From contig QEXY01000127.1 of assembly GCA_003130875.1 (NCBI GenBank), positions 1-43,922 on the forward strand: 43,922 nucleotides of DNA. Direction: 5' to 3'. The translations under genes were made by a program, and so were the position numbers. The notes under the pieces were generated by a model. It had not been told where the DNA came from. It made no database searches and saw only the letters and a program-made list of their open reading frames with translations. The first letter of the stretch is position 1, and every line of letters starts with the position of its first letter. Source of the DNA: Ardenticatenia bacterium (GTDB lineage: Bacteria; Chloroflexota; Anaerolineae; 4572-78; NAK82). Below are positions 831 to 43,792 of the stretch, in pieces.

Positions 831-2015
831 ATGCGACCTGATCATCTCGGCCCCGGTACTCTGTCCGTCTGGGCAGGTGAAGAAGAATACCTGATGCAGC
901 ATGCGACCCAAGTGCCTGTCGTGCATAGCGTCTCCTTCGGCTATCGCGATGTGGATGAGTGGTTGCAAGTAGCACGCGGGCAAAAGCCAGGACACATCTA
1001 CGGACGTAATACCAATCCCACTGTACAGGTCTTCGAAGAGAAGGTGCGCGTGTTAGAAGGCGCCGAGGCAGCCACTAGCGCAGCCACCGGTATGGGTATC
1101 ATCAGCAGCACTCTGTTCGCCCTGTTGTCTCCAGGCGATCGTGTCGTCTCCATCAAAGATACTTATGGAGGCACCAATAAAATCTTCACTGAGTTCTTGC
1201 CCCGCTTTCATGTGGAGGTGACCCTGTGCAATACCACGGATCACGAGGCGATCGAGGCTGAGATCGCCCGTGGTTGCCGTTTGCTCTATCTCGAAAGCCC
1301 CACCAATCCCACGGTTAAGGTGGTAGATTTGGTGCGTCTGGCGGCAGCTGGACATGCAGCGGGTGCTATTGTGGTGGTGGACAACACGTTTGCCACGCCG
1401 ATCAATCAAAATCCCCTGCAGTTGGGGGCTGATCTGGTAATCCACAGCGCTACCAAGTTCCTGGGCGGCCACGCCGATGCATTGGGCGGTGTGGTGTGCG
1501 GCCGCAGGGAACTGGTTCAACAGATTTATCATTTCCGCGAAATCAACGGCGCCTCCTTAGATCCTATGGCGGCTTATCTGCTGTTACGCGGTATGAAAAC
1601 GCTTCACCTACGCGTGCGTCAGCAAAACGAGAGCGCACTGCGCATCGCGCGCTTCCTGGAAAGGCATCCGGCGGTGGCACGCGTGTTTTATCCCGGGTTG
1701 GAGTCGCATCCTGGCCACGAGATCGCCAAGCGGCAGATGCGTGGCTTTGGCGGTGTTTTGAGTTTTATGCTGAAAGACAACACCTTCGACGCTGTGCGCC
1801 GCTTTTTGCCGCGCCTGCGTTATGCTCATCCGGCGGCTAACCTGGGCGCTGTCGAGACGGTGGTGGGACCGCCGGCAACTACCAGCCATGTGGAATGCAC
1901 ACCTGAAGAACGCGCTGCTATGGGCATCCCCGAAAGCTTGATCCGTTATTCCACCGGTATCGAGGACTGCGATGATTTGATCGCCGACCTGGATCAGGCG
2001 CTCAAAGCAGTATGA
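831..2015 (+). CDS. Cys/Met-metabolism PLP-dependent enzyme (cystathionine gamma-synthase/lyase family)
   Basis: A 394-residue fold-type I PLP enzyme of the Cys_Met_Meta_PP family, which carries out gamma- or beta-replacement or elimination on cystathionine, O-acyl-homoserine or related amino acids in the cytoplasm. Visible signatures are the YGRNTNPT substrate/phosphate segment near residue 62, the ESPTNP motif, the VVVDNTFATP strand with the PLP-ring aspartate, and SATKFLGGH with the Schiff-base lysine at about residue 209. The length matches the family. The open frame extends upstream into the 5S gene, but ATG 831 is chosen because GGAGGG lies 5 bases before it. Cystathionine gamma-synthase, gamma-lyase and O-acetylhomoserine sulfhydrylase cannot be separated on motifs alone. 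No other methionine or cysteine gene is adjacent. Confidence 0.9.
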   Translation: MRPDHLGPGTLSVWAGEEEYLMQHATQVPVVHSVSFGYRDVDEWLQVARGQKPGHIYGRNTNPTVQVFEEKVRVLEGAEAATSAATGMGIISSTLFALLSPGDRVVSIKDTYGGTNKIFTEFLPRFHVEVTLCNTTDHEAIEAEIARGCRLLYLESPTNPTVKVVDLVRLAAAGHAAGAIVVVDNTFATPINQNPLQLGADLVIHSATKFLGGHADALGGVVCGRRELVQQIYHFREINGASLDPMAAYLLLRGMKTLHLRVRQQNESALRIARFLERHPAVARVFYPGLESHPGHEIAKRQMRGFGGVLSFMLKDNTFDAVRRFLPRLRYAHPAANLGAVETVVGPPATTSHVECTPEERAAMGIPESLIRYSTGIEDCDDLIADLDQALKAV

Positions 2016-2116: not shown

Positions 2117-3664
2117 TTATGCACCGCCGGCATGACGGGCAACGACTTCGGCCAGCGCTTTGAACTCGGGCGCTAAAACGGCATAGAGGGCACGGTAGCG
2201 TGGGTAATAATCCGCATATACCGGTGTTGCCGCGCTGACGCCAGTTTCTCCGGAGACGCGCACCACAGTTTGACAGGCGGTTGCAACGTCCTGGTAAACT
2301 CCAGCACCCACGCCGGCCAACAGGGCGGCACCATAAGGGGCTCCTTCGGTGACGTTGACGGTCACTAGCCCCATATTGAACACGTCGGCGAGGATCTGAC
2401 GCCACAATGCACTACGTGCCCCACCTCCCAGCGCAATGATCTGTCGGATGGGTAAACCGAGGTTTTTCATGAGTTCCAACGAATCGCGGAGTCCGTAGCT
2501 AACACCTTCCAGGACGGCACGTGTCATGTGGGGCTTGCGATGGCGCAGTGAGAGGCCAAAGAACACACCGCGTGCATCAGGATCTGGGTAGGGTGTTCGC
2601 TCGCCGGTGAGGTAGGGCAGGAACAGGAGCCCTTCACAACCTGCGGGTACTTGGGCTGCTTTCTCGGTCAGAATGTCGTAGACATCCCGGCCCGTTTCAG
2701 TCGCTTGAGCCATTTCGGTGTCGCCCAGCGCGTCGCGGAACCAGCGGAAGCTGCCAGCGGCGGAGAGCATCACGCCCATAAGGTGCCACATCCCCGGAAC
2801 GGCGTGACAAAAAGCATGCAACTTGCCCTGCGGCTCCACACGATACGTATCGGAGGCAGCAAAAACGACTCCCGAAGTGCCCAGTGACACCGAAACGATC
2901 CCTTCGCGAATGACCCCTACACCGACATTGGCGGCAGCGTTGTCGCCGCCTCCGCCGACGACGGGCGTGCCCTCAAGCAGGCCGGTCAGCCTTGCTGCTT
3001 CCGCATTGATGTGTGCACTGACCACGGGGGATTCGGTCACCTCTGGCAGCCACTCACGAGGTATATCCAGTGCCTTGAGCATATCTTCCGACCAGCGGCG
3101 CTGACCGACATCGAATAGAGAGGTGCCAGAGGCGTCTGAGACATCACTGAAGAAACCGCCTGTGAGGCAATAGCGCACATAATCCTTGGGAAGCAAAACT
3201 TTAGCGATGCGCTGATACACTTCGGGTTCATTTTCACGCACCCAGAGGATTTTGGGTGCGGTGAATCCAGGGAGGACAGGATTGCCTGTCCAGCGCAGCA
3301 GATTTTGGATGCCAACTTGCTTTGTGATCGTGGCACATTGCGGTGCCGTGCGCTGATCGTTCCACATAATGCAGCGGCGCAGCACCTGACCTTGAGCATC
3401 CAGTGCGACCAGGCCATGCATCTGACCGGTCAAGCCGACGCCAGCCACCTGTTGGGCCGAGACCTCGGCTTTCTCCAGCGCCTGACGGATGCTGGCAATG
3501 GTGGCTGTCCACCAATCGGACGGGTCTTGTTCCGACCAGGCCGGATAGGGGGTGTACATAGGGTACTCGTTCGTGATACTGGCCTTGACAGTGCCATCTG
3601 AGTCGATCAAGACTACCTTGCTTCCGGTGGTGCCAACGTCAATACCGATGAGATAGGGTGGCAT
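2117..3664 (-). CDS. xylB: Xylulokinase (FGGY family)
   Basis: This 515-residue FGGY sugar kinase most likely phosphorylates D-xylulose to xylulose 5-phosphate, feeding the pentose phosphate pathway in the cytoplasm. The N-terminal half begins with the IGIDVGTTGSK phosphate-binding loop and has GLTGQMHGLV and a PKDYVRYCLTG segment. The C-terminal half has GGGGDNAAANVG and the FGGY-type loop IALGGGARSALWRQILADV. The GQMHG segment is characteristic of xylulokinase rather than glycerol kinase. Two in-frame ATGs compete: one at 3670 has only one base between AGGAG and the codon, while ATG 3664 has a 7-base spacing, so 3664 is preferred. It follows the HNH gene by about 12 nt and is probably co-transcribed. 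No xylA is seen nearby. A second, divergent FGGY kinase lies at 27326-28867. Confidence 0.9.
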   Translation of the reverse strand: MPPYLIGIDVGTTGSKVVLIDSDGTVKASITNEYPMYTPYPAWSEQDPSDWWTATIASIRQALEKAEVSAQQVAGVGLTGQMHGLVALDAQGQVLRRCIMWNDQRTAPQCATITKQVGIQNLLRWTGNPVLPGFTAPKILWVRENEPEVYQRIAKVLLPKDYVRYCLTGGFFSDVSDASGTSLFDVGQRRWSEDMLKALDIPREWLPEVTESPVVSAHINAEAARLTGLLEGTPVVGGGGDNAAANVGVGVIREGIVSVSLGTSGVVFAASDTYRVEPQGKLHAFCHAVPGMWHLMGVMLSAAGSFRWFRDALGDTEMAQATETGRDVYDILTEKAAQVPAGCEGLLFLPYLTGERTPYPDPDARGVFFGLSLRHRKPHMTRAVLEGVSYGLRDSLELMKNLGLPIRQIIALGGGARSALWRQILADVFNMGLVTVNVTEGAPYGAALLAGVGAGVYQDVATACQTVVRVSGETGVSAATPVYADYYPRYRALYAVLAPEFKALAEVVARHAGGA

Positions 3665-3676
3665 AGCCATTCTCCT

Positions 3677-4177
3677 TCAGCGCAGATATTTATCCCATAC
3701 CTGGCGGGCATCGCTGCCCTCCACCAGTGCTAATGCGATGTAACGTGGGCGCGTCGGCTGAGAAAGCAGAGCCATGCCGGCCTCTTCCGGTGTACGATTG
3801 CCTTTGCGCCCGTTGCAGCGCTCACAGGCCGTGACCACATTCTCCCAGCACGTATGACCACCGCGTGAACGTGGGATCACATGGTCCACTGTTAAATCCC
3901 TGCGGGCTGGTTGGCGTCCGCAGTATTGGCAGGTGTAGTGATCGCGTGCCAACACAGTGCGTCGTGTGACCGGCAAGGAGACTTTGTAGGGGATGCGCAC
4001 ATAATAAACCAGACGGATCACGAGCGGCACTCGAATGGTGAAATTCGCGGCGCGCAGCTCGGCCTCAGCAGCCTCGACAATCTCGGCTTTTTCCTTCAGA
4101 AGTAGGATAACTGCCCGTCGCATTGAGACCACGCTGATGGGCTCATAAGTGGCGTTCAGGACGAGGACGCTTCCCAT
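3677..4177 (-). CDS. Stand-alone HNH endonuclease domain protein
   Basis: A 166-residue protein of the compact HNH type common in Chloroflexi, cyanobacteria and Deinococcus. The first 70 residues (VLVLNATYEPISVVSMRRAV) are the conserved N-terminal region of this subfamily. The C-terminal half holds the zinc-supported beta-beta-alpha metal finger: CQYCG, then the catalytic DHVIPRSRGG, then ACERCNGRKGN. All four zinc cysteines and the HNH aspartate/histidine pair are present, so it should be an active metal-dependent nuclease, but its target is not known. AGGAG lies 9 bases before the ATG. It is the first gene of a pair with xylB; the functional link is unclear. Confidence 0.85.
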   Translation of the reverse strand: MGSVLVLNATYEPISVVSMRRAVILLLKEKAEIVEAAEAELRAANFTIRVPLVIRLVYYVRIPYKVSLPVTRRTVLARDHYTCQYCGRQPARRDLTVDHVIPRSRGGHTCWENVVTACERCNGRKGNRTPEEAGMALLSQPTRPRYIALALVEGSDARQVWDKYLR

Positions 4178-4496
4178 TCTTGAGCACTCCTGTGGGTGGA
4201 CAACAGCGTGTGTGGCAGTTGGAAACAGGTGCTTCTTCTTACTCCCTCTCTGAGCTAGTCGTGAGGTGTCATGTGCTCGCGTTTACAATATCTTAACTAA
4301 TCTGCCAATGTACAGATTGGTGACAATTATAACGATGCCGTTCTAGATAGCAAAGATGGACGTGTCAATTGAGCCGCGGGGTGATGGATTTCGGCTCGTG
4401 AGTTCGTCATAGTCTTTCACGCTGTGTATAATTATCTCCTGCCGAAAGGTATCTCGCTGTGGCAATTCGAACTTCTCAAGTTTCTGAGACAGACTG
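4178..4496. other. Divergent intergenic region (HNH / glycosyltransferase)
   Basis: This 319-bp AT-richer gap separates divergently transcribed genes and should hold both promoters. For the plus strand, TATAAT at 4427-4432 with a weak TTCGTC (4403-4408) 18 bp upstream is the best candidate. It contains one short inverted repeat (AATCTG / CAGATT, about 4299-4318). For the minus strand no convincing -35/-10 pair was found. No coding region or RNA gene was recognised. Confidence 0.4.
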
Positions 4497-40955: not shown

Positions 40956-41498
40956 TTACACCAATGCTTCTCCACACGATCCGCGGTATCCACACACCAG
41001 GCAGCGACGGGTTTCGTTGTGATTGCGATGGACTTCGGCGAGGTCGATCAGGTCGGCGCGCATCGCATCTAAAGTCTCCAACAGTGTATGCCGCAAATCA
41101 AGAGTATACGGCACCTGAAACATCCGATCGGGATATTTGATAAAACCATAAGGAGGGGAGTGGCCTTCCGTTTCCTCTACTAATAAGCAGTACGCTGCCA
41201 GTTGGAGCACGTGGGAGGGATAAGGGTGGGGCGGGGTCTTGCTTGACTTGACCTCCACCGGGATGAGGCCGGCGCGTGTCGCGATCAAGTAGTCGGGTTG
41301 GCCCACCAACTGAAACTTTTTAGAGAAGAGGGGCTTACCTGGCATTCCTAAGCTTTCCACATCGGCGGAGACGATGCGTCCCTCTGGAAGATAAGCAGCG
41401 CGCCGGTGACGGGCGTATATCAGGAGCCATCCCCCGCCGAGCAACAGGGATAACATCACCAGCGCCCCTATTAGCTGCCACCCGTTCGTATCAGGCAT
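40956..41498 (-). CDS. Cas4-like PD-(D/E)XK nuclease, C-terminal half, membrane-anchored
   Basis: A 180-residue protein. Residues 7-28 form one membrane helix, followed by RHRR. The rest is the catalytic part of a Cas4/RecB-type nuclease: GQPDYL (D69), VEVKSS (E82, K84), LQLAAY (Q99, Y103), then C166-x2-C169-x5-C175. The last three cysteines are those that bind the 4Fe-4S cluster in Cas4. The fourth cysteine and the N-terminal helical part are missing here but are encoded by the gene at 42348-42671, with an L,D-transpeptidase gene in between. It starts 22 nt after the transpeptidase stop, without a clear ribosome site. It is the last gene of the ssb-translin operon. As a separate protein it may be inactive or need the N-terminal partner. 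Confidence 0.75.
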   Translation of the reverse strand: MPDTNGWQLIGALVMLSLLLGGGWLLIYARHRRAAYLPEGRIVSADVESLGMPGKPLFSKKFQLVGQPDYLIATRAGLIPVEVKSSKTPPHPYPSHVLQLAAYCLLVEETEGHSPPYGFIKYPDRMFQVPYTLDLRHTLLETLDAMRADLIDLAEVHRNHNETRRCLVCGYRGSCGEALV

Positions 41499-41520
41499 CG
41501 CAATATGGTACGTGATAGAA

Positions 41521-42351
41521 TTAATTCTGCGGTGCCGTGCCGGCCGGCTTGATCACCCCGTGGTAAGGTGTGATCTCGATGGGCACTCCCACTGGATTCC
41601 AGGCAGCTAGCCATTCGGCATCCTTGGGTGCGATACGCACACAACCCTTGGAAGCGGGCTCTACCCCCAATGCATCGAGACGATCGTAGATTTTTTCATC
41701 GCCGTTGGGCACGTAGGGCACGCTATGGATCAGGATCGAACCGGTGGCGCCTGGAAAGAGATACCAGATATAATCAGCCCACAGGTCGCTGTTACGGAAT
41801 CTCGCCTTGCCCCAGAAAGGTCCAACCACTCCGCGCCAGGCTGGGGTAAAAGAATCCTCGTACGGAGCGCCTGTGCTGACAGGGATGACGCGGATGAGGT
41901 GGCTGTCCTCGTACACAAGCATCGCCTGTCTGTCCTGATCCACCACGAGATATCGCCCTTCCGGAGGCGGGGTCAGCGTCAATGCGATATTGGGAGATAG
42001 GGTGGACAACGCTCCGTCGCGTTTGGGCAGCGTAAGCGTGAGCTGCGGTGACGGAGTTGGCGTGTGCGTCGCAACGACATGTTGCGTTGTTGTAGCTGCT
42101 GGTGGTCGGGTAGCTGGCGCAGTCGGAGATGGCACGCGTGCTGATGATATCCGTGTTGCCGAGGGCTCCGGCGCAGGAACTTGGACTTCCTTAGAGGAAG
42201 TCGCCTCAACCGTTATCATCGGTTGCGCGATCGTACGATTTCCCGCCAGCAGGTTCCACAGAATCCCACTCTGAATACCGAATCCCCACACACCGAATGT
42301 CACCAGTGCCAGAGAGGCGACGATAACACGACGTTTCCATTCCACTTTCAT
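41521..42351 (-). CDS. L,D-transpeptidase (YkuD domain), membrane-anchored
   Basis: This 276-residue protein cross-links peptidoglycan stem peptides or attaches proteins to them outside the cell. An N-terminal signal anchor (about residues 8-30) is followed by a Ser/Thr/Pro-rich linker (50-130). The YkuD domain comes next: YLVVDQDRQAMLVYE at its start, ILIHS with H209, and ASKGCVRI with catalytic C237. The motif H-x-n-S-x-G-C-x-R is complete. ATG 42351 overlaps the stop of the upstream gene (ATGA), so translation is coupled. The longer frame would run back over that gene. It is placed between the two halves of a Cas4-like protein. Confidence 0.9.
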   Translation of the reverse strand: MKVEWKRRVIVASLALVTFGVWGFGIQSGILWNLLAGNRTIAQPMITVEATSSKEVQVPAPEPSATRISSARVPSPTAPATRPPAATTTQHVVATHTPTPSPQLTLTLPKRDGALSTLSPNIALTLTPPPEGRYLVVDQDRQAMLVYEDSHLIRVIPVSTGAPYEDSFTPAWRGVVGPFWGKARFRNSDLWADYIWYLFPGATGSILIHSVPYVPNGDEKIYDRLDALGVEPASKGCVRIAPKDAEWLAAWNPVGVPIEITPYHGVIKPAGTAPQN

Positions 42352-42671
42352 CGCGCTGCCGTCCCGCATGAGCCCAGGAGGGTTAAAATGCCGACTGCTA
42401 GACCTAATCCGATCAGAACGTATGAAATCTTTTGCCAACGGTGTGTTGCGCTAACCGACCAGCCGAGGTAATTATGGAACTGGATTCCGCCTCTCAATCG
42501 GGATGGATCATCAGGCTGGCATCCGAGCACGCGCGCAAGCCACCAAGCCCGTCGACAGAACACATAATAGCCCACCTCGCTGGCCCGCAATATCAGGTCG
42601 CCATCGTAAGATGCTGGCGCTGCAATTTCAGCTCTGCCAGGTTGATGATGCGATCGACGGAGCTGGCTCAC
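42348..42671 (-). CDS. Cas4-like protein, N-terminal half, with C-terminal membrane helix
   Basis: A 107-residue protein. Residues 28-66 (LRASEVGYYVFCRRAWWLARVLG ... GGIQFH, quoted in part) match the N-terminal region of Cas4-type proteins: S-x-[IV]-x-x-Y-x-x-C-x-R, with C39 as the first Fe-S cysteine, and G-x3-H (H66) as the first nuclease motif. Residues 81-101 form a membrane helix and the protein then ends. The catalytic DEK part is absent here and lies in the gene at 40956-41498. The start is GTG 42671, overlapping the translin stop (GTGA), and its own TGA overlaps the transpeptidase ATG. Thus it is translated within the operon and is not simply debris. Confidence 0.7.
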   Translation of the reverse strand: MSQLRRSHHQPGRAEIAAPASYDGDLILRASEVGYYVFCRRAWWLARVLGCQPDDPSRLRGGIQFHNYLGWSVSATHRWQKISYVLIGLGLAVGILTLLGSCGTAAR

Positions 42672-43357
42672 AACGTCTCTGCTTCCACTGTTTCTGATAC
42701 ACTATGGGCCATTTCTGTGGAGCTGGCCAATCCGCTGCGTGTACTGAACTCACGTAGCGCTGCTTTCAACTCTTCCTGACGCACTGCAACGGTAAGGTCA
42801 CCGCGGGTGCGCTCAAGCACAGCACGCACCGTATCGGTACTGCGCCGCAATCCTCCGGTAACGGCCTCTGAAAAGTCCAGTGTGATTAGCAACGTATACA
42901 CTTCGTCCATAATCTCCAGCAGACGTTCACCCGTGGCAATGTCGTCCTGGCGCAATCGGTCCAACACATAGCGACGCAATTCGCCCATCGCTTCGGCCAG
43001 GCCGTTCAGATAGGCGGGTGCCCCAACCCCGAGCGCTTGCGGTGTGGGGATAGATTGACCGGTGATCAGCGCATATGTCAGGTGCGCTTCGCTCAGCTCC
43101 TTTAACGCGTCTTGCGTATAGCCAGCGTAATAGAGATCGGGATGAGCGGCAATTTCGCCTGTCATCTCCTGTGCTGCTATCCGTGCTGCTTGGAGCAATT
43201 GTTCCGCTTCCGCTTTCTCGCCGCGATGGACGGCGCGAATGGCATGAGCACAATAACGTGTCAGCTGGCGTGCACGGTGCAATGTCTCGTCACGCAACCG
43301 CTCTTTGATCTCAAGTTCGTTGCGAATCGCTTCCACGATGGAGTGCAAATGGTTCAT
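42668..43357 (-). CDS. Translin-family protein
   Basis: A 229-residue, almost wholly helical protein of the translin/TRAX family, which binds single-stranded nucleic acid as ring-shaped octamers; in eukaryotes TRAX carries RNase activity in C3PO. Visible family features are RQLTRYCAHAIRAVHRGE (30-48), YLNGLAEAMGELRRYVLDRL with the acidic residues that are catalytic in TRAX, DEVYTLLITLDF, and TGGLRRSTDTVRAVLERTRGDL near 170-190. Family members are known in archaea and some bacteria, but their role there is not settled. It begins 6 nt after the ssb stop and its own stop overlaps the next GTG. The context with ssb and Cas4-like genes points to DNA or RNA processing. Confidence 0.85.
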   Translation of the reverse strand: MNHLHSIVEAIRNELEIKERLRDETLHRARQLTRYCAHAIRAVHRGEKAEAEQLLQAARIAAQEMTGEIAAHPDLYYAGYTQDALKELSEAHLTYALITGQSIPTPQALGVGAPAYLNGLAEAMGELRRYVLDRLRQDDIATGERLLEIMDEVYTLLITLDFSEAVTGGLRRSTDTVRAVLERTRGDLTVAVRQEELKAALREFSTRSGLASSTEMAHSVSETVEAETL

Positions 43358-43363
43358 TCTGTC

Positions 43364-43792
43364 TCAATACATCAGGTCATCCGGTGCGTCAGCATCGGGA
43401 AATGCCTCGATATCGTCGACCGGAGCGGATGGTCCAGCCCCCTCGCCCCGAATCCATAAAAATTTGATCCTCTCGACAACGACTTCATATCCAGCCCGCG
43501 CCTGTCCATTTTGTCCCGACCACACCCGCGGACCGCCGGTCTCCTTATCAGGAGACAATCGCCCTTCGACGTAAACCAATTGTCCCTTGGAAAGATATTG
43601 ATTGATCGTCTCTGCTTGTTTGTTCCAGGCAGTACAACGAAACCAAACCGTTTCGTCAACCATCGAACCGTCTGCGCTGGTGTAGCGCCGGTTCGCGGCG
43701 ACGGAAAAGTGTGTGACCGGCCTTCCAGTGGGGCTGTAACGCAGCTCCGGATCATTACCCAGTCGCCCGATAATCGTGACCTTGTGATACAT
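43364..43792 (-). CDS. ssb: Single-stranded DNA-binding protein
   Basis: This 142-residue SSB has an OB fold (VTIIGRLGNDPELRYSPTGRPVTHFSVAANRRYT, quoted in part; WFRCTAWNKQAETINQYLSKGQLVYVEGRL) that binds ssDNA as a tetramer. After residue 115 comes a short acidic tail ending DAPDDLMY. It keeps the acidic, hydrophobic-end character but not the usual DDDIPF, and the linker is very short. GGAGG lies 10 bases before the ATG. It heads the operon that continues into translin, the Cas4-like halves and the L,D-transpeptidase. It may be a second, specialised SSB; replication SSBs are more often next to rpsF/rpsR, which are not seen. Confidence 0.93.
   Translation of the reverse strand: MYHKVTIIGRLGNDPELRYSPTGRPVTHFSVAANRRYTSADGSMVDETVWFRCTAWNKQAETINQYLSKGQLVYVEGRLSPDKETGGPRVWSGQNGQARAGYEVVVERIKFLWIRGEGAGPSAPVDDIEAFPDADAPDDLMY

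Follow-up and report, generated by a model that had tools for sequence, protein, structure and literature searches.

Two co-inherited genes of Chloroflexota encode the halves of a probable membrane-anchored Cas4-type nuclease

The window, a stretch of 43,922 nucleotides from contig QEXY01000127.1 of an Ardenticatenia bacterium, contains two short genes whose products very probably form an ancient, obligate two-subunit, membrane-anchored nuclease of the Cas4 type (RecB-like PD-(D/E)xK, 4Fe-4S), with the gene break located in the outward-facing loop of a membrane hairpin. Both products are homologous to parts of Cas4, their motif residues are conserved, the two genes are strictly co-inherited as separate ORFs and one joint fold is predicted for the pair. 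A sequence-only reading of the window had already proposed that a Cas4-type Fe-S nuclease is divided between the 107-aa product (N-terminal part) and the 180-aa product (C-terminal part), which carry one membrane helix each and act in trans. Co-inheritance, motifs and the joint model all support this proposal.

The genes of interest lie on the minus strand in the order single-strand DNA-binding protein (SSB; 43364..43792, PF00436 108 bits), translin-like protein (42668..43357), N-half (42348..42671), L,D-transpeptidase (LDT, YkuD type; 41521..42351) and C-half (40956..41498), followed by an epimerase and a glycan gene group. The N-half (107 aa, GTG start) comprises A-S-E, C39, W43, G62-x3-H66, a membrane helix and a C-terminal tail predicted to face outside. 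On the same strand, the segment from C39, the lone N-terminal cluster cysteine, to the G62-x3-H66 motif occupies 42474..42557, and the helix (residues 82–100, Kyte–Doolittle value 2.2) occupies 42372..42428. The C-half (180 aa) begins with a membrane helix (residues 9–27, 41418..41474 on the minus strand, Kyte–Doolittle value 2.3), followed by the nuclease core D69, E82-x-K84 and Q99-x3-Y103 (41190..41294, minus strand) and by C166-x2-C169-x5-C175 (40974..41003, minus strand), which are three of the four presumed 4Fe-4S ligands. All ORFs and residues named in the earlier reading were found where it had placed them. The joints are clean, as it had noted: the translin-like gene and the N-half share a GTGA overlap, the N-half and the LDT gene an ATGA overlap, and a 22-nt gap separates the LDT gene from the C-half. 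Both membrane segments start with W-Q in the window, as had been pointed out, but this feature is not conserved in the aligned relatives.

The relationship of the C-half to Cas4 is evident from protein family models. It matches PF12705 and PF01930 (29.9 bits for PF01930, above the cut-off), and its score of 58 bits against TIGR00372 falls under the equivalog cut-off of 65. The N-half has no match in Pfam or NCBIfam, and its single-sequence similarity to Cas4 is weak (E about 0.008). Out of 5027 PADLOC models, however, it matches three, all of them Cas4 and all at the model N-termini. Automated annotation would thus name the C-half "Cas4" and overlook the N-half. The two products fall on successive parts of the same models: in PDLC01447 (161 positions) the N-half covers 5–41 and the C-half 31–158, and in PDLC02083 (186 positions) the corresponding ranges are 6–42 and 68–184. 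Profiles built from relatives lead to the same structures. The C-half profile finds Cas4 structures 7mi4, 8d3l and 4r5q at the top of a PDB search, and the best PDB match of the N-half profile is Cas4 8d3l, residues 3–53 (E 0.0046). As a positive control, two ordinary single-chain Cas4 proteins of Chloroflexota (L183 and L184) contain, in a single ORF, matches to both profiles in the expected order, so that homologues spanning both halves, whose absence would have spoken against the earlier reading, do exist. A Pfam Cas4 scan of the organism's own genome returned no other Cas4 above the cut-off; the same scan also missed the C-half of the window.

Taken as a pair, the products carry the complete RecB-type motif set, with H66 in the N-half and D, E-x-K and Q-x3-Y in the C-half. 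At the level of sequence, the 1+3 cysteine pattern is present as well (C39 in the N-half, C166, C169 and C175 in the C-half). In an alignment of 26 N-half relatives, A30, S31, C39, W43, G62 and H66 do not vary, and H69 is nearly constant by column. Among 29 C-half relatives, D69, E82, K84, Q99, Y103, C166, C169 and C175 are invariant. Since the motif residues do not vary in these alignments, the resemblance to Cas4 is not due to chance. Comparison of the window with a congener gave pN values of 0.28 for the N-half and 0.22 for the C-half, with a saturated pS of about 0.74. By this measure both halves are under purifying selection, in line with the earlier impression that the genes are maintained.

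The structure of the pair was predicted with AlphaFold2 for a neighbouring pair, L075, rather than for the chains of the window. In L075 an in-frame stop lies between the halves and was read as Trp; this was a device for folding both halves jointly, and no readthrough is claimed. The alignment combined seven such pairs with separate N-only and C-only rows. The model obtained represents one Cas4 fold (mean pLDDT 95.7, pTM 0.90) with two long helices, H35–78 and H84–112, which form a predicted transmembrane hairpin. A Foldseek search with this model placed the Cas4 structures 8d3l, 7mi5 and 7mi4 first (E 7.7e-7 to 8d3l), followed by Dna2 and ACE1; the Dna2/MGME1 structures 5ean and 8xa9 were among the matches. 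When the C-half of the window was modelled alone, pLDDT was 87.1 and pTM 0.71, and the cysteine-bearing end reached 54–70, compared with pLDDT 94–95 for this end in the L075 pair model. Although different proteins and alignments were used in the two runs, the predictions fit a cluster domain that is completed by the N-half. The distribution of charges agrees with a hairpin: positive residues precede the N-half helix in 21 of 26 relatives and follow the C-half helix in 28 of 29, in each case on the presumed inner side. Hydropathy and charge thus suggest that both soluble parts are inside, which would place the gene break in the short loop that connects the two helices on the outside.

The distribution of the halves was studied in 399 Chloroflexota genomes of at least 90% completeness, with presence thresholds of E about 1e-45 or better for the C-half and about 1e-14 or better for the N-half. 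The N-half was found in 115 genomes and the C-half in 115, and these are the identical 115 genomes, with none discordant. The pairs are spread over several classes and occur, for example, in Thermoflexus, Caldilineaceae, Anaerolinea, Chloroploca and Viridilinea. At the thresholds used, every high-scoring pair consists of separate ORFs, so the single polypeptide typical of Cas4 is replaced by two. A contig scan with the lone C-half sequence gave no match, and the alignment-based scan gave 80 loci. Where a C-half had no N-half nearby, the latter was located elsewhere in the genome in all 18 cases checked. In about 15 pairs the halves are on separate contigs or more than 100 kb apart; on one 3.3-Mb contig of G034, the C-half is located at 244,706 and the N-half at 3,051,891. 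The genes of close pairs either overlap or lie a short distance apart, in frames that vary between genomes. Genome CALGMA01 contains two C-halves and two N-halves (L146, L151), one pair being of the Chloroflexales type and adjacent, and the other being separated.

Two further explanations of the split were rejected. Readthrough or frameshifting is ruled out as a general joining mechanism, given that frames differ and that whole genes or megabases can separate the halves. A sequencing or assembly error, which the earlier reading had named as a possible flaw, is ruled out by the recurrence of the arrangement in many independent assemblies, some of them single-contig. Of the two origins that this reading had offered, the ancient two-subunit form is supported by the separate, strictly co-occurring halves.

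The joint loss of the halves can also be traced. In four genomes from four families (G045, G048, G054 and G059; loci L186–L189), the translin-like gene is followed directly by the LDT gene, and neither half was found even by the most permissive profile search. The order in G059, translin–LDT–HisRS–NAD kinase, resembles the intact order minus the N- and C-halves that flank the LDT gene. The loss of two non-adjacent genes together, with the gene between them kept, provides independent evidence for a joint function of the halves. The weak single-sequence resemblance of the N-half to Cas4 and its lack of a Pfam match could suggest an unrelated small membrane protein with a Cas4-like motif and no partnership with the C-half. 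Such a coincidence is extremely unlikely in the face of the 115/115 co-occurrence, the co-loss, the fact that Cas4 is the sole family matched, the joint fold of the L075 pair and the natural fusions described below.

The LDT of the window possesses a YkuD domain (PF03734, 55.4 bits) and the catalytic S-x-G-C-x-R motif in the form SKGCVR. Its position between the halves had led to the suggestion that a single-chain membrane Cas4 gene was split when a cell-wall gene entered its linker. The clean joints in the window would fit such an insertion, as would the presence of an LDT gene between the halves in the window and in 23 further loci, which makes 24 of the 121 loci surveyed (duplicates are included in this and the following locus counts). 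Against this, the N-half is followed by the C-half with no LDT gene between in 66 loci, and the remaining configurations include 29 loci, some at contig ends, with a C-half and no nearby N-half. Most pairs are therefore adjacent without the transpeptidase, which answers in the negative the question of whether it is always present in split pairs. Other genes may occupy the slot. A HEAT-like repeat protein (about 210 aa) is encoded there in an Anaerolineaceae-type genus and a relative (L206, L208–L213), as two tandem copies in L210, and L072 has an NADPH-dependent FMN reductase gene at 3623–4195(+). Mapped on the C-half tree, the slot LDT is scattered and requires at least eight changes, with well-supported branches forcing at least two; a single entry followed by frequent loss, or several entries, could explain this pattern. 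An insertion as the cause of the split would require all LDT-less pairs to be secondary losses after one event predating the whole phylum. With pairs split with nothing between them, with other genes between them or far apart, this origin is very unlikely.

Functional coupling is a separate matter, since the earlier reading had also considered a wall enzyme as part of the system. An operonic wall-plus-nuclease system, in which the LDT might, for example, remodel the wall during DNA uptake, could account for the recurrence of the same LDT family at this position in several families and in a genome of another class (G068). The slot, however, lacks an LDT in most relatives, the LDT gene is found elsewhere in the genome in G016, G019 and G051, and it is kept beside the translin-like gene where both halves have been lost. 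Coupling of this kind is thus quite unlikely and, the LDT being no constant element between the halves, that part of the earlier reading does not hold. The TRANSPEPTIDASE is a passenger: the LDT does not belong to the nuclease and is an optional neighbour without a required role.

The wider neighbourhood was examined by clustering, which revealed no constant partner of the pair. In Anaerolineae, the genes near the pair encode translin, DUF3467, SSB, LDT, HisRS and NAD kinase. The translin-like gene is upstream of the halves in 72 of the 121 loci and is a frequent, non-obligatory neighbour; in the window it scores below the cut-offs of PF01997 (21.1 bits vs 25.9) and of the PRK14562-type NCBIfam model (278 bits vs 291). 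Its best-matching NCBIfam model is named haloacid dehalogenase. Of 61 related genomes, 57 carry the gene, often in the absence of the Cas4 pair. In Chloroflexales (L116, L126, L129, L132, L137 and L139) the pair is located downstream of an M50 (RseP-type) protease gene and not beside translin, with uppS-, cdsA- and frr-like genes further upstream of the protease. The cas1 gene is found in 76 of the 115 pair-bearing genomes, an enrichment confounded by kinship; in the genome of the window it is on another contig than the pair. No cas1 match was obtained in the other 39 of the 115 genomes, and the pair is not adjacent to cas1 where this was checked. Hence, the pair is not a conventional CRISPR adaptation gene.

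Natural fusions are found in one large-genome genus, which appears to be Ktedonobacteria-like. L180 (353 aa; 853–1911(+)) and L198 (379 aa) contain the N motif, the hairpin and the C-half in one ORF. The sequence-only reading had suggested a search for single-chain forms with a central membrane segment, and these proteins answer to that description. Since other members of the genus and the family are split, the fusions look secondary, and the fact that they carry the same hairpin supports the hairpin topology. Their active sites are decayed, with KPDY changed to RPAY or KPAY and E-x-K to D-x-K, and the cysteines are kept. Across the genus (L180, L198, L199–L201; two members fused), the nuclease D and often the E are replaced and the Fe-S cysteines retained. 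Because these members have lost D and E yet keep the cysteines, the Fe-S and membrane part may be more important than cleavage in some lineages. The replacement of D69 and E82 in this genus could even suggest that the pair as a whole is a two-chain Cas4 fold devoid of nuclease function, serving as a membrane Fe-S/DNA-binding or structural protein. This is unlikely, given that none of the residues H, D, E, K, Q and Y varies among the 29 C-halves and 26 N-halves aligned, the window included.

The two-subunit nuclease is envisaged as follows. The N-subunit, ending in a membrane helix, would supply the G-x3-H helix and the first cysteine of the cluster; the C-subunit would begin with a membrane helix and supply the remaining three cysteines together with D, E-x-K and Q-x3-Y. 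The subunits would meet in the cytoplasmic membrane, where their helices would pack as an antiparallel hairpin with the soluble parts inside. C39 would then join C166, C169 and C175 around a 4Fe-4S cluster, and H66 would join D69, E82 and K84 at the metal site. The active site and the iron–sulphur centre thus probably form only once both proteins meet and, if membrane assembly completes the metal site (H, D, E and K) and the cluster, neither subunit alone should be a nuclease. By analogy with the Cas4 family, the assembled protein is expected to bind the cluster, to possess nuclease activity and to act on DNA, and the predicted topology would let it process or degrade DNA ends at the inner membrane surface. 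The SSB and translin-like neighbours in many Anaerolineae, together with a Cas4-like nuclease of Synechococcus elongatus (PMC10653904), hint more faintly at a role on incoming or damaged DNA ends. More speculatively, the pair might be a phylum-wide obligate two-subunit nuclease that is switched on by membrane assembly and serves as a checkpoint for DNA entering or touching the membrane, which we consider possible and propose tentatively.

The Cas4 proteins of the known structures and papers compared are single-chain, and here two membrane proteins would share one 4Fe-4S nuclease. The break cuts through both the predicted active site (H vs D, E and K) and the cluster (1+3 cysteines), and it is kept in all 115 genomes. 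This offers a natural test of an Fe-S cluster shared between chains and of whether assembly controls a nuclease. The pair also represents a concrete candidate for solo-Cas4 function in a large phylum and would place a nuclease at the membrane. According to Hudaiberdiev et al. 2017 (PMC5704561), solo-Cas4 genes occur in many Chloroflexi and are monophyletic; the C-half is probably what was counted there. By a term search of that text, "split" and "N-terminal" are absent, and "membrane" appears only in a gene name (MrcB). A literature search, most subscription journals lying outside its scope, found no split or membrane Cas4.

Among solo Cas4-family nucleases, the closest parallels are the S. 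elongatus protein, the loss of which helps RSF1010 transfer or maintenance (PMC10653904), and the Argonaute-associated ACE1 (9iac, 9iab). Both act on incoming DNA, and ACE1, a match of the L075 pair model in Foldseek, is a single-chain PDB structure; no split or membrane anchoring was found for either in the sources consulted. The RecB-family nucleases Dna2 and MGME1 share the fold and are single chains, and Dna2 is fused to a helicase, unlike the pair. CRISPR-associated Cas4 (PF01930/PF12705, TIGR00372; 8d3l, 7mi4/7mi5, 4r5q) is the system whose models and structures both halves match, and the pair has the same order of C, G-x3-H, D, E-x-K, Q-x3-Y and three C, as well as the same predicted fold. 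In contrast to it, the pair is encoded by two genes, has a membrane helix in each half at the break between H and D, and is not located beside cas1/cas2. By motifs, models and fold, the pair is a member of the Cas4 nuclease family that departs from it solely in the single-chain feature.
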